The notes under the pieces: model-generated | Seen by the model: the letters and a program-made list of their open reading frames with translations, nothing else | Database searches by the model: none | What the model was told of the DNA's origin: nothing | Made by a program: the position numbers and the translations under genes | Shown: positions 86-19,430 of the stretch, one piece after another | How positions within the stretch are numbered: position 1 is the first letter of the stretch | Layout: each line of letters opens with the position of its first letter | Virus record (IMG/VR): IMGVR_UViG_3300001450_000355 | Location: 1-22,496 of that record | Reading direction: 5' to 3' (one strand) | DNA from: a virus | Length of the DNA stretch: 22,496 nucleotides

Positions 86-700
86 ATGAAGATTACAAAA
101 CAACAACTTAAAGCTTTAATTCGTGAACAGGTCGCAGCAGTCGTTAACGAGACAGACTGGCGCAATGTTTCTGGCAAGGACTACCATAAGTCTCAAGGCG
201 AAGCCGGCCCATATGCCGATGACGATGAAGATGAGGATTGGTACGAATTTCGACACAGAGAGGATCAAGATCAATGGTTGGATGTCGAAGATGAAGACGA
301 GGAGCTTAAACTTAAGGGCCCCAAGCACGATCCTGCGGATCGCGGTGCCCGCGGAGATCACGGAAATTATCGAAAGGGCAAGCTAACTGACTTCAAGGAA
401 GATATGAAAGATGTCGCCGGGCTTATGTCGCAAGCCGGAGCATACGAGATGCCCCCCGACGCCATGCAACGCTTGATGCGAGTTATCAAAGAGCTTTCGC
501 CGGCCTTATCTGACGAAGAGTTGCACGATTTTGCTCAACAGCTCATCAAATCCGGCGGCTTGGATACCGCACTCGGCGCCCCCGAAGAAGTGGGCTTACA
601 AGAAGAGGAAAACAATCCTTGGGCAATCTGTACGTCATCAGTTGGCCGCGAAGATAAAGAGAAATATGAGAAATGCGTTAAGAGTGTAAAGAAGAAATGA
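86..700 (+). CDS. Acidic protein with phage head-type N-terminal leader
   Basis: A 204-residue protein of unknown function. It opens with MKITKQQLKALIREQ, an amphipathic basic leader that recurs in other proteins of this window (starts at 1428 and 9260). In T4, internal head proteins carry a different N-terminal capsid-targeting peptide that gp21 removes at L/I-x-E; the L-I-R-E here would fit such a site, which is inference. Residues about 45-75 are very acidic (runs such as DDDEDEDW). Residues about 125-155 look helical. The tail reads WAICTSSVGREDKEKYEKC and ends KSVKKK, a C-terminus I recognise as recurring in marine phage proteins. The stop overlaps the next start as ATGA. A virion-internal or scaffold-associated role is plausible but unproven. 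Confidence 0.8.
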   Translation: MKITKQQLKALIREQVAAVVNETDWRNVSGKDYHKSQGEAGPYADDDEDEDWYEFRHREDQDQWLDVEDEDEELKLKGPKHDPADRGARGDHGNYRKGKLTDFKEDMKDVAGLMSQAGAYEMPPDAMQRLMRVIKELSPALSDEELHDFAQQLIKSGGLDTALGAPEEVGLQEEENNPWAICTSSVGREDKEKYEKCVKSVKKK

Positions 701-1131
701 ATATAATATTTGAAAATTGGAGAATTGACCTTCAATATGAAGAGTGGCTAAAGAACAGGCCGATCAATGAGAGCAGATCCGATCTTACACGCTCACAAGC
801 TGCCAAGATTCTTGGAATAGCAGCTGACGCAGATATCCGCACCGCAAAAAAGGCTTTTAGAAAGTTGGCAATGACCCATCACCCAGACAAGGGCGGGAGC
901 GAGCAAAAGATGATGTCTCTCAATGCGGCTTGGGCAATCTTTAATGAAGACGATACTCCGAAACCTGAAGCCGCCGGCGCAACTACATCTGGAGGTGGCA
1001 AAGCCCAAGGCGCCGCCACTCCCGAGCCGAGTAACGACAAGAGCGCGTTGTACAACACAATTATACAAGCGATGGGTAAAGCGTTTGCCCCACCACAAGC
1101 TGCGGTTGCAGAAGGAAAACAAACCAAATGA
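697..1131 (+). CDS. J-domain (DnaJ-like) co-chaperone protein
   Basis: A 144-residue protein with a J domain at about residues 31-85. It contains AKILGIAADADIRTAKKAF, the diagnostic HPD tripeptide at residues 62-64 followed by KGG, and a last helix (MMSLNAAWAIF). HPD stimulates the ATPase of Hsp70/DnaK, so the expected partner is host DnaK. The Gly/Phe and Cys-rich zinc regions of full-length DnaJ (about 375 residues) are absent. What follows is a low-complexity Ala/Gly/Pro stretch and a short helix, so this is a J-domain-only protein. The first 30 residues are not typical of J proteins and may bind a phage client. It is translationally coupled on both sides (ATGA at 697 and at 1128). Recruiting DnaK to head or tail protein folding is inferred from context. 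Confidence 0.85.
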   Translation: MNIIFENWRIDLQYEEWLKNRPINESRSDLTRSQAAKILGIAADADIRTAKKAFRKLAMTHHPDKGGSEQKMMSLNAAWAIFNEDDTPKPEAAGATTSGGGKAQGAATPEPSNDKSALYNTIIQAMGKAFAPPQAAVAEGKQTK

Positions 1132-1427
1132 ATTTATTGAGCAAAATTACGGGATGGCTTGCAAAGCCCACTCCAGTTACAGCTGTCGAAGAGGTTGAAG
1201 AAGCCCCCCCGGTGGAAGTAGCTGTTGGCGAGTCTTCTGGCGAAGTCTTTGTTAGGCTCTGTCGTGTTGCCGGCGTAAAAAGTAAAGAACTGAGCAAAGT
1301 AAACGCGTCCGATACTTTTGAGGCGTGGTACACGGGCCCAGTTACAGACGCTGCTATCTTGGAGGCTATCGCTGCTTTTAAAAGCGAACACCCCGGGATC
1401 AGTGCAAAACTTTCAGGGAAGATCTAA
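1128..1427 (+). CDS. Small protein of unknown function
   Basis: A 99-residue protein that I do not recognise. It starts inside the stop of the J-domain gene (ATGA) and its stop directly abuts the next ATG at 1428. Residues 1-15 (MNLLSKITGWLAKP) could form a short amphipathic helix. Residues about 16-35 are acidic and Pro/Val rich. The remainder (GEVFVRLCRVAGVKSKEL to the end) looks like a small alpha/beta domain. The tight coupling on both sides and coherent codon use support a real gene. Confidence 0.7.
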   Translation: MNLLSKITGWLAKPTPVTAVEEVEEAPPVEVAVGESSGEVFVRLCRVAGVKSKELSKVNASDTFEAWYTGPVTDAAILEAIAAFKSEHPGISAKLSGKI

Positions 1428-2054
1428 ATGAACATTACAAAGGATAGAATAATCGAAATCATCAAAGAAGAGGTGATTAACGAATCCGGCGGAGTTTCCA
1501 ACTTTGGCGGAGTTGCTTCAAACTTGGGCGCCCAACGCGCCGATGGCAACGATATATCCGATCATGATTTATACGGTCCACAACAAACGGCCGAAGATAG
1601 CTTTGTAGGTCTTATGATCGACATTGGACAGATGCTTGATATCTGGGAAGAGAAAGAGTATCACTCTGACGAGGCTAGGTACATTAGCTATTTTCAAGAT
1701 CTTCAGGGGCTATTAGAACAATACGATCCCTGCGCCCACCAAGGCAAGAAATGTGATGAGGTGCATCCAAACCAAAGCCATGAAGAATGCATCGAGGTTA
1801 CGATCAATAATGCATTGTACGAAGCGACCAACAGAAAACTTAATGAGATGAAACCACTGGCTTTGAGAATGGCCGACCGCCGGCGCGCCGCTAAGAAAAA
1901 TCGCGTAGGCGGCACTCTTAACATTGAAGATATAGAAGCCGTTTTACCAGATCTGTCACCCGGCGAACAGACGGACATTCTCGAAAAATACAAAGAGTTA
2001 AACAACCAAGACGACCTACGTCAAGCGCTTGGAATGAACGAAAACAAGGAGTAA
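1428..2054 (+). CDS. Leader-motif protein, unknown function
   Basis: A 208-residue protein. Its N-terminus, MNITKDRIIEIIKEEVINE, matches the leader of the proteins at 86 and 9260 (M-x-I-x-K, then L/I-x-x-I-I-x-E-E). Residues about 100-130 contain three Cys and two His (DPCAHQGKKCDEVHPNQSHE), which could bind a metal, although spacing does not match a standard zinc finger. A basic helix (MADRRRAAKKNR) follows, then a C-terminal helical region beginning LNIEDIEAVLPDLSPGEQ. A prohead-internal role is inferred from the leader only. It abuts its neighbours with almost no spacing. Confidence 0.75.
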   Translation: MNITKDRIIEIIKEEVINESGGVSNFGGVASNLGAQRADGNDISDHDLYGPQQTAEDSFVGLMIDIGQMLDIWEEKEYHSDEARYISYFQDLQGLLEQYDPCAHQGKKCDEVHPNQSHEECIEVTINNALYEATNRKLNEMKPLALRMADRRRAAKKNRVGGTLNIEDIEAVLPDLSPGEQTDILEKYKELNNQDDLRQALGMNENKE

Positions 2055-2056
2055 GT

Positions 2057-2257
2057 ATGATGGAAAAATCAAAAGCATTTGTTGACACTTGGTTATCAAA
2101 ACTAACATCCCGCAAACTAATGGTGTGGGCCACTGCGACAGGGCTGGCGTTAACCGGCCACGTTACCAGCGATGATTGGGTAATTATTTCCGCAATCTAT
2201 ATCGGAGGTCAGACAGTGATCGATGGTATTGCAAGACTGCGGGGGTACAATGATTAG
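2057..2257 (+). CDS. Small membrane protein, holin-like
   Basis: A 66-residue protein with two hydrophobic segments, about residues 22-38 (MVWATATGLALTG) and 42-60 (WVIISAIYIGGQTVIDGIA), separated by a short polar turn HVTSDD. It has a basic N-terminal region (SKLTSRK) and a polar tail. Size and hairpin topology fit small phage holins, which permeabilise the inner membrane to start lysis. The following two genes look like spanin-type proteins, which strengthens the reading. No endolysin is visible in the window, so a role other than lysis, for example superinfection immunity, remains possible. The preferred start is the ATG at 2057 with GGAGTAAGT upstream; an in-frame ATG follows immediately at 2060. 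Confidence 0.65.
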   Translation: MMEKSKAFVDTWLSKLTSRKLMVWATATGLALTGHVTSDDWVIISAIYIGGQTVIDGIARLRGYND

Positions 2258-2633
2258 AGAGGCGACCATTAAATTCATCCTAAACAACTGGAAGCAAATA
2301 CTTTTTGGAACGCTCCTACTAGTCTTGATGGCCAAATTTAGGTACGATTACCACCAGCTTGAGAAGGCATATGAAGTTAGCCAGCAGTCGTTGGAAGAAC
2401 AGATTGCTGGCCTAAAAGACATTCATAGGCGAGAGCTAGAACGTCGCGACGAAGCGATTAAAAACTACCGTGATGCTCTGGTTGAATTAGAGAAGGACTA
2501 TACGGATTCTCAAGTGGTTATAGAGCGCGAACGTCGCACATATAAAAACGACCGCGTAAAAGATTTTAAGAATAACCCAGAAGCTTTGAGTAAAGATATT
2601 GAGGAGGCGTTCGGTTTTATAAATGTTCGTTAG
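2250..2633 (+). CDS. Inner-membrane spanin-like coiled-coil protein (Rz-like)
   Basis: A 127-residue protein from the ATG at 2250 (MIREATIKFILNNW). This start overlaps the previous stop by 8 nt; an upstream in-frame ATG at 2223 would give a 33-nt overlap and is less likely. One transmembrane segment lies at about residues 14-28 (WKQILFGTLLLVLMA). A long charged coiled coil follows at about 32-105, rich in Glu, Arg and Lys. That architecture, an N-terminal anchor with a periplasmic coiled coil, is that of Rz i-spanins, which fuse inner and outer membranes late in lysis. No sequence-level match can be claimed because spanins diverge quickly. The next gene overlaps its 3' end. Confidence 0.6.
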   Translation: MIREATIKFILNNWKQILFGTLLLVLMAKFRYDYHQLEKAYEVSQQSLEEQIAGLKDIHRRELERRDEAIKNYRDALVELEKDYTDSQVVIERERRTYKNDRVKDFKNNPEALSKDIEEAFGFINVR

Positions 2634-3045
2634 TTTGCTAATGCTGTTTACAGTGACCGCCCACGCCGAGGAACCGGGGAAGTTTATAATGTTGCGCCAG
2701 AACGAGTGCGCCCCATTTGAAGGTGTTTTGTTTAACCCTGTTGCAACTGCCGAGATTCTTAAAATAAAAGTCTATGCCAAGCGCGAGTGTGAAGTGAAAT
2801 TATCGTATGAATTAGAAAAGAAAGATATAGAGTTTCAATTAGAGAAAGACAAATACAATATTCGATATGATGCGCTTGCAGAAGAACACAAATTGCTTAT
2901 CGTTCAAAAAGATATAGAGATTACACAACTTCGTGAATCACTTTTGAAACAATCCCCACGTAATAATTGGCTGTGGGCAACCGCCGGCGCAATCGTAGGC
3001 GCCGCCGCTACTTATGGAGCATATAGAACATTCAATGACAATTAA
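2623..3045 (+). CDS. Secreted, C-terminally anchored coiled-coil protein (lysis-associated?)
   Basis: A 140-residue protein with an N-terminal signal peptide (MFVSLLMLFTVTAHA, signal peptidase I-type AHA before EE). A short domain follows with two Cys, containing NECAPFEGVLFNP and then KRECEVKL, possibly a periplasmic disulfide. A coiled coil spans about residues 65-110. A C-terminal hydrophobic segment lies at about 115-134 (WLWATAGAIVGAAATYGAY). There is no lipobox Cys, so it is not a classical o-spanin lipoprotein. I recognise the APF-GVLF pattern as recurring in marine phage proteins. A strong GAGGAGG ribosome site sits at 2601-2607, and the start overlaps the previous gene by 11 nt. It may pair with that coiled-coil protein in the periplasm. 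Confidence 0.65.
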   Translation: MFVSLLMLFTVTAHAEEPGKFIMLRQNECAPFEGVLFNPVATAEILKIKVYAKRECEVKLSYELEKKDIEFQLEKDKYNIRYDALAEEHKLLIVQKDIEITQLRESLLKQSPRNNWLWATAGAIVGAAATYGAYRTFNDN

Positions 3046-3427
3046 AGATCCCGACAAGATCGCCGCAATCGAGAAAGCCATATCCCAGAAGTACGGCGCC
3101 GAGACAATTAGAAACCCTCGTGCAGAATGGGGAGAAGAGAAAGAAAAAGAATATCTCGCACAGATGAAAGAATTCTATGCGAAGGTCAAGCACAATGAAG
3201 AGGCACAGGAAAAAGTTGACATTAATGGTATAAAGGTTTCAAAAAAACTACTTAATAGAGAATCTTTAAAATGTTGTTCTGTCTGCGGATCTTTTCCAAA
3301 GAAATCAATGGATGATGTATGCCTTGCTAAATTTGACTGTTGCAGTAACTGCCACGTTCAATATGTGGAAGGTAGAGAAGAAAGATGGTTAAAAGGATGG
3401 AGACCTAATAATGGCAACAGTTTATGA
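3035..3427 (+). CDS. Small protein with paired Cys-x-x-Cys motifs
   Basis: A 130-residue protein from the ATG at 3035 (MTIKDPDKIAAIEKAISQKY). An in-frame ATG at 3014 would add seven residues and a 32-nt overlap with the gene before it, so 3035 is preferred; its 11-nt overlap repeats the arrangement of the previous gene pair. The first two thirds are helical and charged. The end holds KCCSVCGSFPKKSMDD, about 11 residues, then CCSNCH, followed by VEGREERWLKGWRP. Two C-x-x-C pairs about 18 residues apart suggest a zinc-ribbon-like fold. I recognise this Cys region as recurring in marine phages, but no function is known to me. Confidence 0.75.
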   Translation: MTIKDPDKIAAIEKAISQKYGAETIRNPRAEWGEEKEKEYLAQMKEFYAKVKHNEEAQEKVDINGIKVSKKLLNRESLKCCSVCGSFPKKSMDDVCLAKFDCCSNCHVQYVEGREERWLKGWRPNNGNSL

Positions 3428-3971
3428 AATAGTACAAGGCTTGGCCCAAGCAGCCGCCAACGCATATGATGGCGCACTTGGCGAAGACTATGAGCCGGAT
3501 AAGCCCGGCATTTTGCGCAGGGAAGAAGGCAATGCCCTCATCGACCAGCGCGTTATGGATGGATTCAATGTCAAGTTTTATGGCAACAAGATGTGTTTAT
3601 CATACCAATCGGAGATCAAGTTGAAAGAAGTTTACGCTTCAGGCTTTGAAACCGAGATGGAGCAGCGCATTGCCGACATCGCCGGCTGGCTCAAGAAGGA
3701 ATACAAGAAGATCACAGGTGACTCAGTTAGCCTAACTGAAAATGGTGAGATTGACGTCCGCGTCGAGAACACGTCCCGAGTTCGCACATGGGTCACAGCC
3801 AAAATGAACTACACTGTTGGCGGCCTCGATGAGGATTTGTCAGTTATAGAGCCATCTAAAGACCGCCTTGATAAAGGCTGGAAAACCTTCCTCGATCAAG
3901 GTGGCTGGAATGGTGAAGGCGGCAAGCGCCCCGACAACGATTCTCGCAAGAAAGATAAGGGACCACAATAA
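3411..3971 (+). CDS. Conserved phage protein upstream of terminase, unknown function
   Basis: A 186-residue protein starting MATVYEIVQGLAQAAANAYD. It has GGAG about 9 nt upstream and a 17-nt overlap with the preceding gene. Features include a middle beta-rich region (NVKFYGNKMCLSYQSEIKLKE), a helical region (EMEQRIADIAGWLKKEYKK), a second beta region with SRVRTWVTAKMNY, and a polar Gly/Lys/Asp tail. From memory this family recurs next to the terminase in marine T4-like phages, but I cannot name its function. Its place immediately before the terminase suggests a packaging or head role, which is inference. Confidence 0.75.
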   Translation: MATVYEIVQGLAQAAANAYDGALGEDYEPDKPGILRREEGNALIDQRVMDGFNVKFYGNKMCLSYQSEIKLKEVYASGFETEMEQRIADIAGWLKKEYKKITGDSVSLTENGEIDVRVENTSRVRTWVTAKMNYTVGGLDEDLSVIEPSKDRLDKGWKTFLDQGGWNGEGGKRPDNDSRKKDKGPQ

Positions 3972-3982
3972 CTTGATAATGC

Positions 3983-5566
3983 ATGACTTTTCAATTAGAC
4001 AAAAAACAAAGAGTAAAGGAAATATTAAAGTGCGGTAAGGATCCCGCTTACTTTCTTAAGACTTACGCCCGTATATCACACCCGATGCACGGGCTTATTC
4101 TTTTTAATACTTATGATTTTCAGGACGACCTTCTCACAGACTTTAATGACTACCGCTTTAATGTAATCCTCAAAGCGCGCCAGCTTGGTATCTCTACGAT
4201 CACCGCTGGTTACATTGTTTGGATGATGTTGTTTCACCGCGATAAGGCTGTGCTCGTCATGGCTACCAAGTTTGCGACAGCGGGAAACTTGGTTAACAAA
4301 GTAAAGAAGATTATGAAGAATCTCCCTGATTGGATTCGAATCGCAGATATCGATATTGATAACCGCACATCCTTCATCTTATCCAATGGTTCTTCGATTA
4401 AAGCAGCCTCCACCTCTGGAGACGCCGGCCGTTCGGAAGCTTTGTCGCTTTTAGTTCTTGATGAGGCCGCCCACATCGAGGGCTTGGGAGAACTATGGAC
4501 AGGTTTGTACCCCACGTTGTCAACTGGTGGCCGCTGCATCGCACTTTCAACACCCAATGGCGTTGGCAACTGGTTCCATAAGACATGTATGGATGCGGAG
4601 GCTGGCACAAACAATTTTAATTTGACAACACTTATGTGGGACGTTCACCCCGACCGAGATGAGGGCTGGTTCAAGAAAGAAACCAGAAACATGTCGAAAC
4701 GACAAATCGCACAGGAACTTGAATGTAACTTCAATACGTCTGGCGAGACTGTGATAGATCCAGATTGTATGCGATGGCTGTTGTCAAACGTTAAAGAGCC
4801 CAAGTACAGGACTGGCTTCGATAGAAATTTTTGGATTTGGGAAGAACATGACCCAACATGCAATTATTTAATGGTTGCCGATGTTGCAAGAGGCGACGGG
4901 GAAGATTACTCAACTTTTCATATTATCAAATTAGAAACTTTAGAGGCAGTAGGAGAATATCAAGGCAAGCTGACGCCTGATATGTTCGCCGGCATGTTGA
5001 ATCAAACCGGCCGCGAGTTCGGAAATTGTATGCTTGTAGTAGAAAATAACAATATTGGCTACACAGTTCTGGATAAACTGATAGAATATGATTATCCCAC
5101 CTTGTATTTTTCCGTAAAGTCAACACATGAATATATTGAGCAACACCAAGCGAACTACCATAATTCAGCAGTTGCGGGATTTTCCACCAGCGTGAAGACA
5201 AGACCTCTCATCATTGCGAAATTAGAAGAGTTTATAAGAAACAAACTAATTAAACTATATTCGACTCGCACTATTAACGAGATGAAGACTTTTATATGGA
5301 GGAACGGCAAACCTCAAGCAATGAAGGGATATCACGACGATCTTATCATGGCGTTGGCCATAGCTTGTTGGGTACGAGACACAGCCCTTCAAGTAAACGC
5401 TAGAGATTTGAACTACCAAAAAGCATTTTCAGATGCAATTATAACTTCTAGGACAAGCATGAACACGCAGATAAAAGGACAACATGGATATAAGAAAGAT
5501 AACATTATGGATCAAATAAGTGAGGCTCGTAAAACATACGATGAATTTAAATGGATTATAAAGTGA
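3983..5566 (+). CDS. 17: Terminase large subunit (T4 gp17-like)
   Basis: A 527-residue DNA-packaging motor ATPase and nuclease (T4 gp17 is 610). The ATPase domain shows the Walker A variant ARQLGIST at residues 65-72, a Walker B LLVLDEAA at 157-163 with D160 and catalytic E161, and the coupling motif ALSTPNG at about 187-193. The RNase H-fold nuclease domain shows VADVARGDGEDYS (D300), LVVENNNIG (E354) and YHDDLIMALA (D452/D453), matching the three acidic positions of T4 gp17. It docks on the portal, pumps DNA into the prohead and cuts the concatemer. No gp16-like small subunit is visible beside it. The ATG at 3983 has no strong Shine-Dalgarno sequence and lies 12 nt after the previous stop. 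Confidence 0.97.
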   Translation: MTFQLDKKQRVKEILKCGKDPAYFLKTYARISHPMHGLILFNTYDFQDDLLTDFNDYRFNVILKARQLGISTITAGYIVWMMLFHRDKAVLVMATKFATAGNLVNKVKKIMKNLPDWIRIADIDIDNRTSFILSNGSSIKAASTSGDAGRSEALSLLVLDEAAHIEGLGELWTGLYPTLSTGGRCIALSTPNGVGNWFHKTCMDAEAGTNNFNLTTLMWDVHPDRDEGWFKKETRNMSKRQIAQELECNFNTSGETVIDPDCMRWLLSNVKEPKYRTGFDRNFWIWEEHDPTCNYLMVADVARGDGEDYSTFHIIKLETLEAVGEYQGKLTPDMFAGMLNQTGREFGNCMLVVENNNIGYTVLDKLIEYDYPTLYFSVKSTHEYIEQHQANYHNSAVAGFSTSVKTRPLIIAKLEEFIRNKLIKLYSTRTINEMKTFIWRNGKPQAMKGYHDDLIMALAIACWVRDTALQVNARDLNYQKAFSDAIITSRTSMNTQIKGQHGYKKDNIMDQISEARKTYDEFKWIIK

Positions 5567-5574
5567 GAATATAA

Positions 5575-7587
5575 ATGGCAAGATCTAACAGAAACTACAA
5601 GAACCCAGCGAATGAACAATCGGGGCTTTTCAAAGCACTCACCCGGCTGTTCTCTGGGCCGATTATCAATTACCGCTCTCAGTCCGGACGCCGCATCAGG
5701 CGACAACACCTTGACAAGTTTGGCACGCGATTCAAGTCTGCATCCGGCCAGCAGTTTAAGAAGTCGCTTTACAACCCATTAGACGTTGTAGCTACCGATG
5801 CGATTGCAAACCAGCGCAGAACAGAGCGCTATGTGGACTTTGATCAGATGGAGTATACGCCAGAGATTGCATCGACGTTGGACATTTATTCTGACGAGAT
5901 GACAACATATTCTGAGTTGCGCCCCATGCTCAACATCAACTGCTCAAACGAAGAGATTAAAGCGGTCCTTACCATCTTATATGATCAGGTGTTAAACCTA
6001 AAGTATAACCTTTTCGGCTGGAGTCGTACCATGTGCAAGTATGGTGATTTCTTTCTATATTTGGACATCGACGATAAGTACGGCATCAAGTCAGTCATTG
6101 CACTACCGCCTCAAGAGATTGAAAGGTTAGACGGCAAAGACTCCACTAATCCAAATTATGTCCAGTTTCAATGGAACTCAGCCGGCATGACGTTTGAGAA
6201 TTGGCAGGTGTGTCATTTCCGCATTTTAGGAAATGATAAGTATCTCCCATATGGATCTTCCATTCTTGAGCCGGCCCGCCGTATCTGGCGCCAGCTTACA
6301 CTTATGGAAGATGCAATGATGGCTTATCGTGTCGTGCGCTCGTCTGAACGCCGCGTCTTCAAAATTGATGTTGGGGCTATTCCACCGCAAGATGTTGAAC
6401 AGTACATGGAAAAGGTTGTCACGCAGCTTAAGCGACATTCCGTAGTAGATCCATCCACCGGCCGTGTTGACTTACGATATAACCCCATGTCAATTGAAGA
6501 AGATTACTTCATCCCAGTACGCGCTGGTTCAGTCACTGACATCCAAAGTTTAGCCGGCGCACAAAACATTACGGCAATTGACGATATTAAGTATCTTCGC
6601 GACAAACTGTTCTCTGCTCTTAAGATTCCTGCCGCATACCTTTCGATGGGAGAGGAAGCAGCAGAAGATAAATCAACTCTTGCACAAAAAGACATTCGAT
6701 TCGCGAGAACAGTTCAGAGACTGCAGCGCGTTATTATTGCAGAGCTTACAAAGATTGGTATTATCCATCTTTATACGCTTGGGTTCCGCGGCGATGACTT
6801 GCTGAGCTTCACCCTGTCTCTCAACAATCCTTCAAAGATCGCCGAACTTCAAGAGCTTGAGCACTGGAAACAAAAGTTCGACATTGCCGCATCAGCGACT
6901 GAAGGTTACTTCTCTCGTCGTTGGGTTATGGAACACGTATTCGGCATGTCCAATGAAGAATTCCAGCGCAACCAGCGTGAGATGTATTACGACCGTAAGC
7001 ACGACGCGTCACTACAGGCAGTCGCAGAAGCGGCCGCAGCTGCCGGCGCAGCCGGCGCCATGGGTGGTGGGGATCTTGGTGGAGACTTAGGCGCCGAGCT
7101 TGGCGACAATATTGTCGGCGGCCCAGCAGAAATGCCAGCCGGCGACATCGGCCCAGAGGCTGGTGGTGCCCCAGAGCCCGCCGGCGATGCCGGCCCAGAC
7201 GATGATTCTTCTCTGTTAGCAGTCCCCCCCGGAAGCCGTGACGTCCGCAAATATGACAAGTCAACGTACAAAGCGAAGAGCGGAACCAACGACCGAAGAA
7301 GTGGTGCCGGCCCCCGGAAACGCGCCAATGATGCATCGGCAGGAAACCAGAAAGCTAGCGCCGGCTCACGAAATGTGTTTCCCGGCGGTCGAGACATATC
7401 CAACTTAGCGAAACCAATTGGGGCCAATGTGGGTATTTATGAAGAAGAACAGTCTACTTATACGTTGAGAGAAACCTCAGAAGAGATTAAACTCTTTGAA
7501 GTTAACGAATCTGTTCGAACATTACTTCAGGGGCTCGACATCAAGGAAGGTATATTAATGGAGAAGAAAGATGAAGACAAGGCATAA
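5575..7587 (+). CDS. 20: Portal vertex protein (T4 gp20-like) with extended C-terminus
   Basis: A 670-residue portal protein that would form the dodecameric ring at one head vertex, through which DNA enters and to which the tail joins. The typical gp20 core spans about residues 50-480, with MEYTPEIASTLDIYSDEMT near residues 82-100 and the region containing KYLRDKLFSALKIPAAYL at about 340-360. T4 gp20 is 524 residues; the surplus is C-terminal. Residues about 480-545 are Ala/Gly/Pro/Asp low complexity, 545-610 are basic and Ser/Gly rich, and the final 60 are acidic and helical. The gene follows the terminase by 8 nt, whereas in T4 the tail sheath and tube genes lie between 17 and 20. Confidence 0.95.
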   Translation: MARSNRNYKNPANEQSGLFKALTRLFSGPIINYRSQSGRRIRRQHLDKFGTRFKSASGQQFKKSLYNPLDVVATDAIANQRRTERYVDFDQMEYTPEIASTLDIYSDEMTTYSELRPMLNINCSNEEIKAVLTILYDQVLNLKYNLFGWSRTMCKYGDFFLYLDIDDKYGIKSVIALPPQEIERLDGKDSTNPNYVQFQWNSAGMTFENWQVCHFRILGNDKYLPYGSSILEPARRIWRQLTLMEDAMMAYRVVRSSERRVFKIDVGAIPPQDVEQYMEKVVTQLKRHSVVDPSTGRVDLRYNPMSIEEDYFIPVRAGSVTDIQSLAGAQNITAIDDIKYLRDKLFSALKIPAAYLSMGEEAAEDKSTLAQKDIRFARTVQRLQRVIIAELTKIGIIHLYTLGFRGDDLLSFTLSLNNPSKIAELQELEHWKQKFDIAASATEGYFSRRWVMEHVFGMSNEEFQRNQREMYYDRKHDASLQAVAEAAAAAGAAGAMGGGDLGGDLGAELGDNIVGGPAEMPAGDIGPEAGGAPEPAGDAGPDDDSSLLAVPPGSRDVRKYDKSTYKAKSGTNDRRSGAGPRKRANDASAGNQKASAGSRNVFPGGRDISNLAKPIGANVGIYEEEQSTYTLRETSEEIKLFEVNESVRTLLQGLDIKEGILMEKKDEDKA

Positions 7588-8401
7588 TAAAAAGAGAAAC
7601 ACCGCGTTTGTTTATGAGGCCCTTGTAAGAGAAGCCACAGTCGCAATTTTAAAAGAAAACACAGAACGCCGCAACAAGGTTGTTACGATTATAAAGAAAC
7701 ACTTTGGAGAGGATTCTCAACTTAAGCAACAGTTAGAGTGTTATCGTTCACTTTATGAAGTTCGTGGAGTTTCCGAAAACACAGCGAAGAGAATTTTGAA
7801 CGAGGCAAAGATGGCCAGTCGTCTTCTTGATATTAATGGCCTCTTTGTTAGCCAGAGCGATTTAATTGATGATGTAAACAAAGAAGTGACACCCGAAGTC
7901 TTTAATAATTTCGTTCCTAACTATAAAACTTTAGCCAGCATTTCCCAAATGTTTTCTGTGAAAACATCACCTCGCGACCGAGTTATGTTAGAGAACCAGA
8001 TTATCAAAACTATGACATCCGCCCCACCGCCTAAAGTTAATGTTGCCGGCATCGATAACATAACATACAAAACGTTTGTTAATAAATTCAATAACAAATA
8101 TAAAGATGGCTTACTGCAAGAACAGAAAGACTTGCTGACTAAATACATTTCTTCTTTTAGCGATAATGCGTTAGAACTTAAGATGTATCTCAACACAGAA
8201 ATCAGCCGTCTCAAGCGGCGCATGAACGAAGCCTTGTCCATCGAAGAGATTAGGAATGATAATGAGATGACGAGAAAGGCAAGCGACGTGGTCGCCCGCC
8301 TTGAATCATACGCCAAGAGTGAAGTCACAGAAGAGGTTCTCATGACTGTACTTCAGACTCAATCACTAGTTGGAGAAATATACAATGCCGATAACAATTA
8401 G
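7571..8401 (+). CDS. Conserved phage protein between portal and protease
   Basis: A 276-residue, largely helical and highly charged protein beginning MKTRHNKKRNTAFVYEALVR. The start has GGAGAAG just upstream and overlaps the portal stop by 17 nt. I recognise the N-terminal KKRNTAF-YEALVRE pattern as conserved in marine T4-like phages near the portal, without a named function. In T4 the equivalent position holds the small prohead core genes 67 and 68, so a prohead core role is a reasonable positional guess, though size and sequence do not resemble them. Confidence 0.8.
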   Translation: MKTRHNKKRNTAFVYEALVREATVAILKENTERRNKVVTIIKKHFGEDSQLKQQLECYRSLYEVRGVSENTAKRILNEAKMASRLLDINGLFVSQSDLIDDVNKEVTPEVFNNFVPNYKTLASISQMFSVKTSPRDRVMLENQIIKTMTSAPPPKVNVAGIDNITYKTFVNKFNNKYKDGLLQEQKDLLTKYISSFSDNALELKMYLNTEISRLKRRMNEALSIEEIRNDNEMTRKASDVVARLESYAKSEVTEEVLMTVLQTQSLVGEIYNADNN

Positions 8402-8927
8402 GGTTGGCGATGAAGCTAACAAGAAATTAGTTACCCTTGAGATGGATATCCGCAAAAGTATAAGCGGAGATCTCATGATTTTTGATCACGGCGACATCGA
8501 CATAGTTCTTTCGACAGAGCAGAACAAGGTGATTGCGTTTCCCAAGGAAGTTATCTCTGATTATGTTTATGGCGCCCAGAACAGGTTGTTTACATTTCTA
8601 CGTAAAAGAGGCATCGTCGTCGCTGAATCAGTGCAGGCCGGCGCCTTTTACGGCTCTTTCGAAGCCACCATGCAAACCCCCAAGGTTGAAGGTATGAGCG
8701 CCGCCAAAATGGCATTAGTCAACATTTCTAACTTTATCACAGAAGAACGCCCATACTTTGAGGCCACAGAAGCAATCATTTCAATGACAGATGACGAGTA
8801 TATCGATCCTGACAATGAAGACGCTACAGAACTTGGTGAAGTACCACAGGCCGTCAAGCAAGGTTCGATGCGCAAAGGATTCGTTAGAGATGCTTACGCT
8901 ATGAACTACCTCTACACGTTAGAATAG
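8385..8927 (+). CDS. Conserved phage protein, unknown function
   Basis: A 180-residue protein beginning MPITIRVGDEANKKLVTLEM. The ATG at 8385 is chosen over a TTG at 8370 because GGAG at 8372-8375 is correctly placed for it. It overlaps the previous gene by 17 nt. The N-terminal half is predicted beta (VTLEMDIRKSISGDLMIFDH, then DIDIVLSTEQNKVIAFPKE). A helical middle follows (DYVYGAQNRLFTFLRKRG), then an acidic segment (DDEYIDPDNEDATELGE). From memory it recurs in marine myoviruses beside the previous gene. It could be a virion or assembly component; nothing in the sequence assigns it. Confidence 0.8.
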   Translation: MPITIRVGDEANKKLVTLEMDIRKSISGDLMIFDHGDIDIVLSTEQNKVIAFPKEVISDYVYGAQNRLFTFLRKRGIVVAESVQAGAFYGSFEATMQTPKVEGMSAAKMALVNISNFITEERPYFEATEAIISMTDDEYIDPDNEDATELGEVPQAVKQGSMRKGFVRDAYAMNYLYTLE

Positions 8928-8934
8928 GAAACAG

Positions 8935-9270
8935 ATGGAACTTATAACCTTTGCGCTCGTTGCGTACGGACTTACACAAATCTTAGTCTACAGCGACATG
9001 CCACTTATAAAGCTGATGCGCCCATCAAAAGAAGCATGTCGAGGATATGGGAAGGTATTTCATTGCCCGATGTGCATGGGTTTTCATGTCGGTTGGTTTT
9101 TAATGCTACTTTCTCCGTTTACAGAACTATTTAATTTTGACATTACTGTAATCAATTTCTTTCTTCTTGGCTGGCTCTCGTCTGGAACATCATATGTTTT
9201 GAACATGGTCTTCGGAGATAAAGGAATACAGTATTCACAAACTATGGAGATATCTAATCATGAAGATTGA
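8935..9270 (+). CDS. Small membrane protein, DUF1360-like
   Basis: A 111-residue integral membrane protein. It has a hydrophobic N-terminal segment (about 3-20), a loop carrying HCPMCMGFHVGWF with C44 and C47, a hydrophobic stretch (about 50-62) and another at about 70-92. The C-x-x-C-x-G-F-x-V pattern next to a membrane helix is what I associate with DUF1360 proteins of unknown function. GGAAACAG precedes the ATG. It sits between head-assembly genes; T4 has a membrane-bound assembly initiator (gp40), so a link to prohead initiation at the inner membrane is conceivable but is speculation. Confidence 0.65.
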   Translation: MELITFALVAYGLTQILVYSDMPLIKLMRPSKEACRGYGKVFHCPMCMGFHVGWFLMLLSPFTELFNFDITVINFFLLGWLSSGTSYVLNMVFGDKGIQYSQTMEISNHED

Positions 9271-9553
9271 TAAAAAGAGACTTAAGCAAATTATAACTGA
9301 AGAAATCCAGAAGTTCGAAGAGAACAATCCCTCAGCCACCGAGATTGGCGCCACAGCACGTGGCGGTGATATGCGCAAAGATATTTCCGCTGCCAGTGGA
9401 AAAGGCCGCGGCCTCATCGGCCGCCTACAAAAGATGATTCAACACATCGGCGCAAACAAAGTTACGCCCAATAGCCAGATGATGACTAAACTTGGACATC
9501 TTGAGGCCGCACTGGGCATACAAGCTGAACAGCCCACAGGAGAAGGACAATGA
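9260..9553 (+). CDS. Small leader-motif protein
   Basis: A 97-residue protein that opens MKIDKKRLKQIITEEIQKFEE, the third clear copy of the leader motif in this window. I-I-T-E would be a candidate gp21-type L/I-x-E cleavage site. The remaining part is polar and Gly-rich with a helical patch (LIGRLQKMIQHIG) and ends EQPTGEGQ. The start overlaps the preceding stop by 11 nt. Its position directly before the prohead protease, together with the leader, makes a small prohead core protein (in the role of T4 gp67/gp68) a reasonable inference. Confidence 0.75.
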   Translation: MKIDKKRLKQIITEEIQKFEENNPSATEIGATARGGDMRKDISAASGKGRGLIGRLQKMIQHIGANKVTPNSQMMTKLGHLEAALGIQAEQPTGEGQ

Positions 9554-9615
9554 ACAACACTTGGACTAAGAAGTGGATGCTTCAACCTGTCAGACTTTGT
9601 AAGTCTGGCTGCTAA
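9550..9615 (+). CDS. Possible 21-residue leader peptide ORF
   Basis: A short ORF begins with an ATG overlapping the previous stop (ATGA at 9550-9553) and ends at TAA 9613-9615. The peptide starts MNNTWTKKWM and ends LCKSGC. GGAGAAGG lies just upstream, so it has both a ribosome site and the coupling geometry seen at other real starts here. Without it, the gap before the protease gene would be about 100 nt, large for this operon. It may be a real micropeptide or a translated leader controlling the protease, but coding status cannot be settled by eye. Confidence 0.4.
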   Translation: MNNTWTKKWMLQPVRLCKSGC

Positions 9616-9635
9616 CTCGCGCCGGTAGCGCCGGC
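9587..9635 (+). promoter_or_regulatory. Tandem hairpins in the protease gene leader
   Basis: Two inverted repeats lie between the 97-residue gene and the protease. The first is CAGACTT (9591-9597), loop TGT, AAGTCTG (9601-9607), extendable by a G-T and a G-C pair. The second is GCCGG (9621-9625), loop TAGCG, CCGGC (9631-9635), which also contains a GCGCCGG direct repeat (9619-9625 and 9628-9634). Neither is followed by a T run, so they are not typical terminators. The protease ribosome site AAAAGGA begins at about 9641, so folding or passage of ribosomes through the small ORF could modulate its access. Confidence 0.45.
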
Positions 9636-9654
9636 ACCTTAAAAGGATAAACCA

Positions 9655-10260
9655 ATGAGCAAGAAAGTACTAAGAGAATATTACGCGCTGTGTGAGGGAG
9701 GAGTCTGCAAGGATCTTCTAACTGAACAAGAAAAACAATACGTCGCAGACGGCGGAATGATTCTTTCCGGCATTATGCAGAAGTCCGACACCGTTAACGG
9801 TAACGGCCGTGTATACCCCCACAATGTTTTAATGAAAGAGATGAAGAACTACCAAAAGCTTGTCAAAGAATGTCGAGCACTTGGAGAGTTGGATCACCCA
9901 GAAGATTCGGTGATTAATCTTAAGAACGCATCTCATATGATCACAGAGGTGTGGTGGGAAGGCACAGCAGTGATGGGAAAAGCTAAAGTACTTGATACCC
10001 CTTCCGGCAAAATTCTACGCTCTCTGGTAGAGTCTGGCGTCACGCTAGGCATATCTTCGAGAGGTATGGGGTCGGTCACTGAATCGAACGGACAGACTAC
10101 GGTAGAAGAAGACTTCCAATTGATTTGTTTTGATTTTGTATCAGAACCATCAACCCCCGGCGCTTTCATGATGAAGGAAGCCATGGGTCACACCAACCAA
10201 GTGTTCACCAAAGCTGACCGCATCAATCGCCTCTTAAACGAGGTGCTTGAGGATGAGTAA
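9655..10260 (+). CDS. 21: Prohead core protease (T4 gp21-like)
   Basis: A 201-residue serine protease (T4 gp21 is 212) that cleaves scaffold and capsid proteins in the prohead, typically after L/I-x-E. Conserved elements: MQKSDTVNGNGRVYP near residues 41-55, GELDHPE with catalytic His81, LGISSRGMG with the Ser at 134/135, and FDFVSEPSTPGAFM with Asp160. The His-Ser-Asp arrangement is that of the herpesvirus-assemblin/gp21-type prohead protease fold. The ATG at 9655 follows AAAAGGATAA. The 686-residue acidic protein gene starts inside its stop codon region. In T4 the scaffold gene 22 follows 21; here several genes intervene. Confidence 0.95.
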   Translation: MSKKVLREYYALCEGGVCKDLLTEQEKQYVADGGMILSGIMQKSDTVNGNGRVYPHNVLMKEMKNYQKLVKECRALGELDHPEDSVINLKNASHMITEVWWEGTAVMGKAKVLDTPSGKILRSLVESGVTLGISSRGMGSVTESNGQTTVEEDFQLICFDFVSEPSTPGAFMMKEAMGHTNQVFTKADRINRLLNEVLEDE

Positions 10261-12313
10261 CTGGTCGAGCTACAAGGGAGATAAGCTTTTAGCCGAAGGG
10301 TGGCGTTCCTACCTTAAGGGTGATTTGTATGCCGGCGAGAAACTTGAAGAGATTTTCGGACTTGGAAAAGGAAAAGAGAAGAAGTGGGCGGATATTGCCT
10401 CCGGTGAAGACAAGGGCGATCCTAACGCTGCCCGGGGCACAGTCTATAACAATGTCCTTGCGGAAGTAACCGCGTGGGTGGGCCAAACGATCCAAGAGAT
10501 GCGTAAGGACCCCGAGACGCCAGAAGAAGTCCGCGCCATTGTTCAAGAAATTGATGAAGTGGCTATCGTTGACGAATTTGAAGAAATGATTACAGCCCAG
10601 CAATTCGAGTTGCTGGAGCAGTCTGCCTTTCAGCGCGATGATCAGGACGGCGGCGTTGCACAGACTGGCCATGTTGCCGATCCAGAAGCTGAGGAAGGCG
10701 AAGACCTTCCTTTAACGTTTGAGCCCGATGGCCATGAAAACATCACCAAATTTATCGAGGTCATCAAAGATAACCCCGAACACGTAGAGAAGTTTGTTAC
10801 AGAGCTTAAACGCTCCGGCTTCTCTAACTGCGTAGATACACTGGGTTGTAAGAAACCTGCAGTTGAGGCCGGCGCCACCGGCCTTGTTCGTAAGTTCCGC
10901 GGCCCCGGCGGCGTCAACATGGGCGGTGTTGGCGGAGACACCGGATTGAAGGGCGGTGGACAGCAGATCGACAAGAAGAAAGAGCCTGAGAAGGTCACAA
11001 CGCAAGATGGCACTGCTTTGGTATTACAACAAGGTGATCAAGAACTAGTGGCCGTTGATACAGATGGCGATGGCAAAATTGATGAGGTTACACCGCTTGT
11101 TGACAAGGTACTGGAGCTATTGCGCCAGCTTTGTGCATACGAAGTGTATCCTGAAGACGGACGCGACCAAGCAATGAAGCAGCTTGAAGACACCGTACGC
11201 CCAGAGCTTGAAGCCGCCGGCACAGATGAGCTTGGACAGTTAATTAAAGAGCTGGAAGAGGAGATTGCACAACAGGGTGCGTGCCGCCTTCAGATTGGCG
11301 CCGGCCCCGATGCAGGAGAGATCGCAGGGCCAGACGATATGAAGCAGCTACAAGGCCCAGATGAGATTCTCATTGATTATCAAGACTCACTGAATCGCGC
11401 CATGGAAATGGCTCGCTCCGGCGGCGTAGAGAACTTTGAGAAAGATGATTTCGATCTGATTTATATGGCGATGGGCGATTGTAACGACGAAAGCAATATT
11501 CAATTTGGAGAGCCGTCAGAATCATCCACCGTTAGAGAAGCCGTAGATTACGATAAGTGTAAAGATTTAAGAGAACTCGGAGCCTCCCCACAGTTTATTC
11601 AGCTTGTCGCGAAAGCGATTTCAGGCGTGACTGATGGGATTGAATATGAAAAGTTTTTCCTTAACCTCCCCGGCGCCGCGATTGAAGACGGACCCCCTGA
11701 CGATGATGAACAAACTAGCGATGACGATGTCGATGACGGCGGAGATGATGACGGCCAAGATACGGCCACCACGCATGGATTACCCCAAAATTGGAAACCA
11801 AAAGGGGACGCTCTCAAAGGTCAGCGTTGGATTGAAAATAGCTATAAGTTGCTAGGCAAAGATGCAGGAAAAACCAGCTGGGAAGACGATCTTCGCGATT
11901 TTGCTGACAAGATAGGCAAAGTGAAATTCGGAGGCTCATTAAGTGAGCGTAAAAAAGGCCATGGCTTCGATGCCGAAGACGTAGCTAAAATGATGGGAGG
12001 TAAAGAGGATTCCGAGAAGCTATCCCGCGCCCTGAAGCTACTGAGAAACAGAAACCAGAAAGGTACCGGCGCATATACCATCATGTTAGCATTGAGCAAG
12101 TTGAAGAAGAGAGAAACTAGTGGCCCCCGCGCCACTCAAGTAAGAGATTATTTACAACAGCTATATGGCGCCATTCGAAAATCAGCCCCCGCCAAGAAGA
12201 AGCCGGAAGACGCTGCACCAGAAGCCCAAGTTCAACAAGCCGCAGAAAGTTTACTTAGAGAATCAACCATCGATAGATGGCAGCAAATTGCTGGAATTAA
12301 AAAGAGAGTATAA
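10253..12313 (+). CDS. Large acidic prohead-associated protein (inferred)
   Basis: A 686-residue protein, acidic over most of its length, not matched to a named family. The ATG at 10253 has GAGGTG about 7 nt upstream and an 8-nt overlap with the protease. It opens MSNWSSYKGDKLLAEGWRSY. Near residue 270, DTDGDGKIDEV resembles a Ca-binding EF-hand or dockerin loop, but the usual Glu at position 12 is Thr. Residues about 480-505 are an Asp-rich run. Residues about 520-640 look like a separate helical domain (WIENSYKLLG onward). The end, LLRESTIDRWQQIAGIKKRV, has an L-R-E site like the capsid protein's and an AGIK tail shared with the gp22-like scaffold. I infer a prohead core protein processed by gp21. 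Confidence 0.8.
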   Translation: MSNWSSYKGDKLLAEGWRSYLKGDLYAGEKLEEIFGLGKGKEKKWADIASGEDKGDPNAARGTVYNNVLAEVTAWVGQTIQEMRKDPETPEEVRAIVQEIDEVAIVDEFEEMITAQQFELLEQSAFQRDDQDGGVAQTGHVADPEAEEGEDLPLTFEPDGHENITKFIEVIKDNPEHVEKFVTELKRSGFSNCVDTLGCKKPAVEAGATGLVRKFRGPGGVNMGGVGGDTGLKGGGQQIDKKKEPEKVTTQDGTALVLQQGDQELVAVDTDGDGKIDEVTPLVDKVLELLRQLCAYEVYPEDGRDQAMKQLEDTVRPELEAAGTDELGQLIKELEEEIAQQGACRLQIGAGPDAGEIAGPDDMKQLQGPDEILIDYQDSLNRAMEMARSGGVENFEKDDFDLIYMAMGDCNDESNIQFGEPSESSTVREAVDYDKCKDLRELGASPQFIQLVAKAISGVTDGIEYEKFFLNLPGAAIEDGPPDDDEQTSDDDVDDGGDDDGQDTATTHGLPQNWKPKGDALKGQRWIENSYKLLGKDAGKTSWEDDLRDFADKIGKVKFGGSLSERKKGHGFDAEDVAKMMGGKEDSEKLSRALKLLRNRNQKGTGAYTIMLALSKLKKRETSGPRATQVRDYLQQLYGAIRKSAPAKKKPEDAAPEAQVQQAAESLLRESTIDRWQQIAGIKKRV

Positions 12314-12747
12314 TGAAAAAATCAGATTTAAAAGAATTAATTAAACCCATAGTGAAGGAGTGTATCCATGAGACCCTTATTGAAGAGGGTCTTCTGTCTA
12401 ATATTGTAGCAGAGGTTGCTAAGGGAATGCAAGGCAACTTAGTTGTTGAGACTACCCAGAGTACAAAAAACCCTGACGAGGCCCTATTTAATGAGCGTAA
12501 ACAAATGAAGCGCAAAACTGAAGATACCCACAAGAAACTTAAGGAACATCGAAGAAAGTTAATGGACTCCATAGGCTCTGACGCGTATGGTGGAGTAAAC
12601 TTGTTTGAAGGTACCGAGCCTATGAGTGGCCATGATACCTCCAAAGCAAAAGCCGGCTCGGTTGACTTAGGCGATCCAAGTGATTCTGGAGTAGATATCA
12701 GCAGCCTTGTGGGCGGCGCTTCACAAATCTGGAAGGCAATCAAATGA
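12313..12747 (+). CDS. Leader-motif-like protein, unknown function
   Basis: A 144-residue protein whose ATG shares its A with the previous TAA. It opens MKKSDLKELIKPIVKECIHE and then LIEEGLLSNIVAEVAKG, a helical N-terminus related in pattern to the leaders at 86, 1428 and 9260 though less exact. I recognise the KELIKPIVKEC-x-E pattern as common in marine phage proteins. The middle is strongly basic and helical (KQMKRKTEDTHKKLKEHRR). The end is Gly/Ser/Asp rich with ISSLVGGASQIWKAIK. It is coupled to the bS21 gene through ATGA at 12744. Its placement in the prohead block suggests an internal or assembly protein. Confidence 0.75.
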   Translation: MKKSDLKELIKPIVKECIHETLIEEGLLSNIVAEVAKGMQGNLVVETTQSTKNPDEALFNERKQMKRKTEDTHKKLKEHRRKLMDSIGSDAYGGVNLFEGTEPMSGHDTSKAKAGSVDLGDPSDSGVDISSLVGGASQIWKAIK

Positions 12748-12989
12748 AAAAAACATCGAATGTATCAGTCAAGTTAAAGCATTGCGGCAACAACACAGAG
12801 AAAATGATCCGAAGGTTCATTAAGAAATGTAAGAAAGAAAGAATTATTGATGAGATCAAGGACCGCCGCTATTATAAAAAGCCGTCTGAAGCCAAGCGCG
12901 AGAAGCAAAGAAGAGCCGAACGGTTTAGGCTTCGCGAGGAAAGAAAGAAACAAAGAGCGATAGAAAGGCGCAATAGAAATAATAGATGA
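12744..12989 (+). CDS. rpsU: Phage-encoded ribosomal protein bS21
   Basis: An 81-residue, very basic protein with the S21 signature: SVKLKHCGNNTEKMIRRFIK, then KKCKKERIIDEIKDRRYYKK and PSEAKREKQRRAER. Bacterial S21 is typically about 60-75 residues with the pattern E-xx-(L/I)-RRFK-K-CKK-x-GI-(L)-E-(I)-R-(K/R)-R-x-YY-x-KPS followed by basic helices, and the match is close throughout. bS21 sits on the 30S platform near the anti-Shine-Dalgarno region and aids initiation. Virus-encoded S21 is known in some aquatic phages. The gene is coupled to its neighbour by ATGA and ends where a late-promoter element begins. The last about 15 residues (Arg/Asn-rich) extend beyond the usual end. Confidence 0.9.
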   Translation: MKKTSNVSVKLKHCGNNTEKMIRRFIKKCKKERIIDEIKDRRYYKKPSEAKREKQRRAERFRLREERKKQRAIERRNRNNR

Positions 12990-13026: not shown

Positions 13027-13443
13027 ATGGCAATGTCATGGCAAGCTGAGGTGGGCATCAACCACACCCCGGCATATCAAGTAAGCGGAAGACCATTTGC
13101 TAGCGCTAGTGTTAGATACGATAGCGGCGCCACGGCACAGGTGGTGAGTTTCCCTTATGTAACACGTTGGTGGCAAATTCACAACCGAGGCGTCTCAGAT
13201 TTGAGAGTTGGGTTTTCGGCTCTTGGAGTTGCCGGCACCAATTACAACTATTATCTTACAGTGCCCCCGAGTAGTTCAGTCGGCTTCGGCAAATCCGACA
13301 TGTATGAAATGAAAGTTTCGCAATTGTGGCTTTACGGTGCCACCGCCGGTACCTGCGATGTAGTAGCTGGTTTAACGACCATCCCGCCACGTAGAACATC
13401 AGGTAGTTTAGGTAAGAACTTCTCCGGCTCTGTAGGAGTGTAA
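13027..13443 (+). CDS. Small beta-rich structural protein
   Basis: A 138-residue protein preceded by an excellent ribosome site (TTTGGAGGTTTTATA). It has no charged or helical segments of note and is rich in Gly, Ser, Thr, Val and aromatic residues (for example FPYVTRWWQIHNRGVSDLRVGF and PPSSSVGFGKSD), which suggests a compact beta-sandwich. It ends SGSLGKNFSGSVGV. It lacks the C-terminal module of the next genes. It heads the fibre-like cassette and lies under the first late-promoter element, so a small virion surface protein is likely. It could instead be a neck or connector protein; no family name can be given. Confidence 0.75.
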   Translation: MAMSWQAEVGINHTPAYQVSGRPFASASVRYDSGATAQVVSFPYVTRWWQIHNRGVSDLRVGFSALGVAGTNYNYYLTVPPSSSVGFGKSDMYEMKVSQLWLYGATAGTCDVVAGLTTIPPRRTSGSLGKNFSGSVGV

Positions 13444-13447
13444 TTAG

Positions 13448-14131: not shown

Positions 14132-14153
14132 TTAACTCTAGGAGGCACACCAC

Positions 14154-16642: not shown

Positions 16643-16681
16643 TCTAAAGCTTTTGCTTCGGTTAAGATATTCTTAATTTTT

Positions 16682-16716
16682 GGATGCCCCTCCTTGTGGG
16701 GGGCATCCTCTTTTTT
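16682..16716 (+). terminator. Rho-independent terminator
   Basis: GGATGCCCC (16682-16690), a 9-nt loop, then GGGGCATCC (16700-16708) gives a 9-bp GC-rich stem. It is followed by TC and six T residues (16711-16716). It lies 40 nt after the 539-residue protein gene and would end that unit. Confidence 0.9.
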
Positions 16717-16720
16717 GGGG

Positions 16721-16730: not shown

Positions 16731-16733
16731 AGT

Positions 16734-16943: not shown

Positions 16944-16966
16944 AATAATACAAGGAAATAATAAAT

Positions 16967-18176: not shown

Positions 18177-19430
18177 ATGTCAAATTTATTAAAAGAGGCA
18201 ATTGTAGACGCGTCTGCATTGCGCGAAGCAGCGTTGAAAAATGCTGAATCATCCGTAATCGATAAGTATTCGGCTGAGGTGCGCGCTACTCTTAACCAGC
18301 TACTGGAGCAAGACGACCTTATGGGTATGGATCTTGATGCCGTGGCTGACGCTGGTGCTACAGACCCAATGGGTGCAGACGCCGGCCCCGACCCGATAGC
18401 TGGTGCAGAAGAGCCGGCCATGGGTGCAGCCCCAGAGGCTGCTGATCCTGCTGCAGCCGCCAGTCCAGCCGATGAGTCCTTGGAAGAGGACTTGGAGGAC
18501 GTGCCTGTCGCCGCCACCGATAATATCGGCGATATGGACGGCCAGAATCTTAAAGACATTCCGGGCGAAGGCGATCCTGTCGAGGTCACTTTAGATCTTG
18601 GTACGCTTAAAGAGTCGGTCGCCGCGCTGCAGGCAGAGATTGAAGAAGATTTGACCTTTGACGAGTACACACTTATCGATATGCTTTCGGAAGAGGGAGC
18701 AACGTCCGCCCCCGAGGACAATCTGTTTGACACAGAAGAGTCCGGCGGCGATGACGACGATGACGATGACGAAGGTTCATCGAGTGCCGAAGCAGAAACA
18801 GCATCTGCATCGGGCATCGCAGCCACTGATGCCGCACAAAAAGGCATAGGCGAAGAAATTGAAATCTCCGATGACATGATTGATGAAATCGTTGAGAGAC
18901 TTACAGTAGATATGGGTGCTACCCTATCCGGTTGGGCAGGACGCTCATCCGAGAGTATCAAATATGAACTTGCGCGAGCACTTGCAGCTCGCCGTAGCAC
19001 CGATGTACAAGCTGATTTAGATATTATGAGGAAAGCCCAAGAGGAGCTAGTTTTCGAAAATAAACGGCTGAAGGGGCGACTTTCACAATACGAGCAAGTA
19101 ACAGGCGAGCTTAAGGAGACACTGCAAACAGTTAACCTTTCGAACGCCCGCTTGCTTTATACGAATCGGGTATTAAGAAGTACCTCCTTAAATGAGCGGC
19201 AAAAAACAAAAATTGCCGAGTCTATTTCAAAGGCCGATTCTGTCGCAGAAGCAAAGACAATTTATAATACGCTTCAAAGCACAATGGAGGAGGCGCCCAA
19301 ACGCGCCCCACAATCATTGAGCGAAGTTATTAGCCGTCCAACTTCTGTAATTCGTGCAACTCGTAAAGAGTCAGCACAACCCACCGACGTGTTCGCAAAA
19401 CGGATGCGTCGTTTAGCCGGGATTAAATAG
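18177..19430 (+). CDS. 22: Prohead core scaffold protein (T4 gp22-like)
   Basis: A 417-residue acidic scaffold (T4 gp22 is 269) expected to form the prohead core and be degraded by gp21. The N-terminus MSNLLKEAIVDASALREAAL is helical. Residues about 50-200 are very acidic and Ala/Pro/Gly rich, with a run of seven Asp near 191-197. The C-terminal half carries the family signal: KRLKGRLSQYEQVTGELKET, then SNARLLYTNRVLRSTSLNER and KADSVAEAKTIYNTLQS. It ends with VFAKRMRRLAGIK, a tail resembling that of the 686-residue protein. Its place directly before the capsid gene is as in T4. The long acidic insert is the main departure from T4. Confidence 0.9.
   Translation: MSNLLKEAIVDASALREAALKNAESSVIDKYSAEVRATLNQLLEQDDLMGMDLDAVADAGATDPMGADAGPDPIAGAEEPAMGAAPEAADPAAAASPADESLEEDLEDVPVAATDNIGDMDGQNLKDIPGEGDPVEVTLDLGTLKESVAALQAEIEEDLTFDEYTLIDMLSEEGATSAPEDNLFDTEESGGDDDDDDDEGSSSAEAETASASGIAATDAAQKGIGEEIEISDDMIDEIVERLTVDMGATLSGWAGRSSESIKYELARALAARRSTDVQADLDIMRKAQEELVFENKRLKGRLSQYEQVTGELKETLQTVNLSNARLLYTNRVLRSTSLNERQKTKIAESISKADSVAEAKTIYNTLQSTMEEAPKRAPQSLSEVISRPTSVIRATRKESAQPTDVFAKRMRRLAGIK

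Follow-up and report, generated by a model that had tools for sequence, protein, structure and literature searches.

A shared N-terminal leader of otherwise unrelated proteins as the probable capsid targeting sequence of a T4-type phage lineage

The virus record IMGVR_UViG_3300001450_000355, a stretch of 22,496 bases analysed over its whole length (the window), raises the question of why several proteins whose bodies do not resemble each other open with the same short N-terminal leader. The explanation that we favour, with a probability of roughly 0.72, is that this leader is the capsid targeting sequence (CTS) of a T4-type phage lineage, from which we infer docking, cutting, location in the virion and injection. 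In such a mechanism, an amphipathic N-terminal helix of about 22 residues would attach accessory proteins to the scaffold core while the prohead is growing, a gp21-type protease would then cut behind the Glu of a hydrophobic-x-E motif at residues 18–22, and the body would be freed inside the head along with the DNA, with injection being probable.

The leader, referred to here as class I, has in related contigs the consensus MKITKxxLKxIIKEELxxVLxE. Three open reading frames (ORFs) of the window carry it, with the N-termini MKITKQQLKALIREQ, MNITKDRIIEIIKEE and MKIDKKRLKQIITEE, respectively:

86..700, + strand: class I carrier, 204 aa; leader residues 1–22 (86–151); predicted cut V-V-N-E, then T
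1428..2054, + strand: class I carrier, 208 aa; leader residues 1–19 (1428–1484); predicted cut I-N-E, then S
9260..9553, + strand: class I carrier, 97 aa; leader residues 1–21 (9260–9322); predicted cut F-E-E, then N

Relatives were gathered in two ways: 160 loci were fetched via the protease and the major capsid protein gp23, and 80 IMG/VR loci via a degenerate DNA pattern of the leader. A class I profile of 20 positions, built from the 160 head-gene loci and applied at a threshold of 10 bits, gives the window ORFs at 86, 1428 and 9260 scores of 32.3, 31.7 and 38.5 bits; no other start in the window exceeds −2 bits. When the first 60 residues of each window protein were shuffled, in some 28,000 trials each, the motif of the first-pass annotation was never reproduced, and the common leader that it had described at these three starts is thereby upheld. 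In the 160 loci, 118 ORFs have class I starts of at least 10 bits, against 0 when the sequences are reversed; the scores leave a broad interval empty, and all loci together hold about 330 distinct class I carriers. Since synonymous codons vary at the invariant leader residues, roughly as much as in the bodies, constraint acts on the leader peptide, and conservation at the nucleotide level was rejected. In the AF2 model of the 9260 protein (low confidence, pLDDT 54), a helix at residues 5–22 is followed by low-confidence sequence.

A fourth, looser carrier had been proposed at 12313..12747 (+ strand, 144 aa). This ORF does not match the profile and was rejected; it belongs instead to a conserved single-copy family of 35 sequences that are 55–90% identical over their full length. 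Its N-terminus is modelled as one continuous 39-residue helix (AF2, low confidence, pLDDT 61).

What, then, is the leader for? The strongest new evidence for capsid targeting is, in our view, a second, T4-like leader class, MKLLFENWRxYLxE (class II), which surfaced via homologous bodies when the carrier bodies were compared with all other ORFs. At a profile threshold of 10, class II is found at 136 starts, against 0 in reversed sequence. The two classes are interleaved in eight near-complete genomes, and follow each other in the order I, II, I, II, I within 3 kb in G042. The window has a class II carrier too, absent from the first-pass list, which sits between two class I carriers:

697..1131, + strand: DnaJ-domain ORF, 144 aa, class II; profile 10.2 bits; Pfam DnaJ 2.9e-9

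The leader of this ORF is MNIIFENWRIDLQYEEWLKNRPINE, then S, a long variant spanning 697–771. Four body pairs bear either leader class (E values of 6e-35, 3e-26, 5e-16 and 4e-14): a 2H phosphodiesterase with tRNA_lig_CPD in both members, a PGMEPYDLSTLV protein, a DHIxGI(D/E)AKL protein and a protein of 280–340 aa. In the first three of these pairs, body similarity restarts at the predicted junction. The class I 2H phosphodiesterase is without the junction Glu (MKK, then N).

When the two profiles are right-aligned on the junction Glu, both classes have a hydrophobic residue at −12/−11, Glu at −9, hydrophobic residues at −7 and −4 and Leu/Ile at −3, often with Asn at −2. At −7, −4, −3 and −1, class I has L/I, V, L and E, and class II has W, Y/F, L/I and E. 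In T4, IPII and IPIII start with MKTYQEFIAE, then A, and IPI with MKTFKEF...ITE, then A. Truncation and substitution work on the T4 CTS has assigned residues 4 and 7 mainly to targeting, and residues 8 and 10 to processing (PMC9026906). Aligned on the cut, these four residues become −7, −4, −3 and −1, and IPIII and both leader classes thus share a hydrophobic −7, a hydrophobic −4, Leu/Ile at −3 and Glu at −1. By register the leader would work like a CTS, but likeness to the T4 leader sequence itself was not found.

The T4-type phage origin of the window is clear from its gp17-, gp20- and gp21-like genes and gp23, called with PHROGs and Pfam:

3983..5566, + strand: large terminase gp17; PHROG terminase 5.8e-54
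5575..7587, + strand: portal gp20; PHROG portal 1.1e-71
9655..10260, + strand: gp21-type prohead core protease (Peptidase_S77); Pfam PF03420 4.6e-35; PHROG head maturation protease 5.6e-56
19461..21254, + strand: major capsid protein gp23; Pfam Gp23 4.7e-72; predicted propeptide cut L-L-R-E60, then S

The nearest annotated relatives of this gp23 are distant, all at less than 60% identity: Rhodothermus phage RM378, Flavobacterium phage immuto, Microcystis phage Mel-JY01 and LR756508, a huge uncultured phage. The protease gene lies directly downstream of the carrier at 9260..9553, and its product is the presumed cutter of the leaders. Across the lineage, gp23 carries LL(R/K)E, then S, A, N, T, G or Q, which corresponds in position to T4 FLTE, then A, and the hydrophobic-x-E site is in register in 105 of the 107 distinct relatives. 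Among 287 non-redundant carriers, 74% have hydrophobic-x-E with its Glu at residues 17–26, against 18–21% in later stretches of the same proteins; if a small or polar residue after the cut (P1') is demanded as well, the figures are 38% and 2–8%. At the junction P1' is small or polar in 49% versus 29% (Fisher p = 4e-6). The likely cut is at this second hydrophobic-x-E, at about residues 18–22, not at the I-x-E of residues 12–14. The leader ends in the window read V-N-E, I-N-E and F-E-E, of which only one has the strict L/I-x-E form.

The same junction bears on the alternative that survives best, in which the leader targets the head yet stays uncut, as a retained docking helix that binds the scaffold, the portal or the capsid interior. 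The leader is modelled as a single helix, amphipathic by pattern, whose C-terminal Glu possibly reflects helix composition or capping, and about 26% of carriers have no hydrophobic-x-E at 17–26, all of which would suit a retained helix. However, the P1' preference at the junction is like that of the gp23 site and unlike that of the rest of the body, and similarity in the swap pairs restarts right after the Glu; we therefore regard an uncut leader as unlikely, if the most serious of the alternatives.

The distribution of the leader can be set beside that of gp21. The tight leader DNA pattern has 0 matches in GTDB, with one genome for each of 84,980 bacterial and archaeal species, whereas 39 of the 80 viral loci match it. 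By tblastn, the leader matches only LR756508 among 50,697 phage records and has no matches in plasmids, class II gives only chance-level matches in phages, and a literature search with the leader letters returned nothing relevant. The pattern loci appear to be one lineage: in 78 of 80, 20% or more of the ORFs are shared with nine large genomes, and each of the 80 shares at least some. Peptidase_S77 is present in all eight leader-pattern records of at least 100 kb, and a gp21-type protease also in G048, G050 and LR756508; no contig examined has a complete head module without the protease. Of eight contigs of 51–100 kb without the protease, in six none of the terminase, portal, protease and gp23 genes of the lineage is seen, and another, G047, ends just before the protease position. 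The 69-kb G011 (L372–L375) has class I carriers, including one of 611 aa, and gp23 fragments only; terminase, portal and protease were not found in it, and it stays unexplained. In LR756508.1, the gp21 protease ORF (156507–158102, 576 aa) matches the Pfam profile in two separated halves, perhaps owing to an inserted domain or intein. As far as these contigs go, the leader is not common in phages without a protease, but since it is confined to essentially one lineage, its association with gp21 is not independent evidence of function.

Somewhat less likely than an uncut leader is a role in the infected cell, where the leader would bind a partner that is not part of the virion, such as a phage-modified polymerase, the ribosome or a proteolysis adaptor; its resemblance to a CTS would then be coincidental. 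Some leader genes do lie in clusters far from the head genes, several bodies are enzymes (NUDIX, kinase-like, 2H phosphodiesterase), and the T4 late promoter TATAAATA is essentially absent upstream of carriers (1 of 83). The strand of the carriers is uninformative, as 90–95% of genes are on one strand. T4 ip genes, however, are likewise found away from head genes, the leader is restricted to the gp21 lineage, and it is interchangeable with class II, which has the T4 register.

Where the leader would be cut is the point at which we depart from the first-pass annotation, which had placed the cleavage at I-R-E, I-K-E and I-T-E, residues 12–14. I12 and E14 are among the most conserved class I positions and fit L/I-x-E. 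Yet P1' after residues 12–14 is Glu in 91% of cases, a residue never found in the listed gp23 sites; because P1' in gp23 is small or polar, the site at 18–22 fits the presumed protease specificity of the lineage and the earlier one does not. Furthermore, the register of the two classes and the swap junctions place the cut 5–8 residues later, and residue 14 pairs with the invariant E6 of class II. A cut at 12–14 seems to us a doubtful proposition, slightly more so than a non-virion partner. What stands of the original proposal is a T4-like prohead-targeting system, in agreement with gp21, gp20, gp17 and gp23 in the window, with occurrence in gp21-bearing phages only, as far as the data reach, and with the exchange with T4-like class II; the cut points are disfavoured.

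The bodies behind the leader are mutually unrelated, as had been reported for the window, where they show no resemblance: 335 carrier bodies fall into 190 BLAST clusters (E 1e-3), 158 of them singletons, and the sole consensus remaining in a MAFFT alignment of 139 carriers is MKITKxxLKxIIKEExxxxxxE. Descent of all carriers from one expanded family, by divergence of paralogous bodies, is hardly credible, for although one cluster has 88 members and some modules are common, it is contradicted by the number of clusters, by the different known folds and by the occurrence of the same body under two leader classes. Class I bodies include pentapeptide-repeat, HNH and 2H phosphodiesterase proteins, most carriers being without a known family, and class II bodies include NUDIX, DnaJ and kinase-like proteins. 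Counting both classes, near-complete genomes have 8 to 19 carriers. In 38 of 77 loci, the position upstream of the protease is occupied by a leader ORF, from varied cargo families; the other 39 have no leader ORF there, as would be expected of optional, accessory cargo. The carrier at 86..700 has homologues in L213 and L226 that bear the leader too, and it ends in a module, NNPWAICTS..CVKSVKKK (NNPWAICTASVGREDKEKYEKCVKSVKK, window 596–697), that is C-terminal in seven class I carriers with differing bodies. This module, also listed for L183, L226, L064, L170 and L263, is shuffled between class I carriers.

Several points weigh against capsid targeting. In the register comparison, −3 and −1 were selected for, and only −4, −7, −9 and −11/−12 are independent; beyond register, class I (MKITKxxLKxIIKEEL) is unlike T4 MKTYQEFIAE. 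To this may be added the quarter or so of carriers without the junction motif, and the junction Glu may in part be helix composition. A single lineage, with one huge phage besides, supplies the link to gp21, which is hence confounded by ancestry, and the cultured gp21 relatives immuto, RM378 and Mel-JY01 have neither leader class.

Two further ORFs of the window lie between the protease and the capsid gene:

10247..12313, + strand: large low-complexity ORF, 688 aa, TTG start; class II-like KLLAEGWRSYLKG near the N-terminus; C-terminal LLRES..RWQQIAGIKKRV
18177..19430, + strand: scaffold-position ORF (gp22 slot, directly before gp23); six sites of the form L/I-x-E, then a small residue; C-terminal RMRRLAGIK tail

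Relatives of the 10247 protein have the family N-terminus WSSFxxDKLLMExWRxxLxE, and the scaffold-position ORF has a counterpart at the same place in near-complete genomes. These two unrelated proteins and their relatives have in common a C-terminal tail, R(M/W)xxLAGI(K), which is found in 139 ORFs of the related loci, against 6 in reversed sequence, and in 0 class I carriers. In the 10247 protein, LLRE, then S, precedes the tail, possibly a second signal for assembly. A ribosomal protein S21-like ORF (12744–12989; PHROG 4.3e-7) also lies in the stretch that separates protease and capsid gene, and from there to the scaffold runs a series of ORFs that are rich in glycine and serine and have weak, fibre-like matches in PHROGs (13027–18112). 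A small conserved protein at 8935–9270, MELxTFILxAYGLTQILVY..CPMCMGFHVGW, is probably a membrane protein; in most loci its gene immediately precedes the protease gene or the cargo slot of the latter.

On balance we lean, without great assurance, towards a broader picture, in which one lineage uses two parallel head-targeting tags, swaps them between homologous cargo and loads each virion with 8 to 20 modular proteins, 2H phosphodiesterase, NUDIX, pentapeptide-repeat and DnaJ proteins among them: a general protein-delivery system that could be read from sequence. If capsid targeting is the right reading, the tag allows the head cargo of uncultured T4-type phages to be recognised by computation. 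It would name hundreds of candidate injected proteins, mostly without a known family, that can be screened for counter-defence roles like those of T4 Ip1–3, and it would give T4-type heads a second natural tag by which proteins can be loaded. The tested positions of the T4 CTS would then be suggested as a general rule.

Among known systems, the freshwater bS21 phages of Bacteroidetes have a similar head block of terminase, portal, prohead protease, S21-like gene and major capsid protein, with the difference that S21 is on the opposite strand there (PMC9723584). In SPN3US and phiKZ-type phages, a prohead protease related to gp21 processes many head-internal proteins at a short motif, with the cut after Glu (PMC9026906); their cleavage motifs and phage group are different, and we liken them by description only. 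The T4 internal proteins differ in several respects: the class I leader is about 22 residues long, compared with 10–19 in T4; it adds the conserved MKITKxxLK part and Glu at −9, and is aliphatic instead of aromatic at −7 and −4; and three internal proteins in T4 compare with 5–12 class I carriers per near-complete genome and 20 in the 480 kb of LR756508. Class II, with aromatic residues at −7 and −4, is nearer to the T4 leader, yet not the same sequence. Outside their leader, T4 Ip1–3 have no homology, and once injected they inhibit type IV restriction enzymes (PMC12373910). The leader-bearing phage, like T4, has gp21, gp20, gp17 and gp23, and what it has in common with the gp21-removed CTS of IPI, IPII and IPIII is a short N-terminal leader on unrelated small accessory proteins that ends in hydrophobic-x-E (PMC9026906; PMC3012670; PMC12373910).

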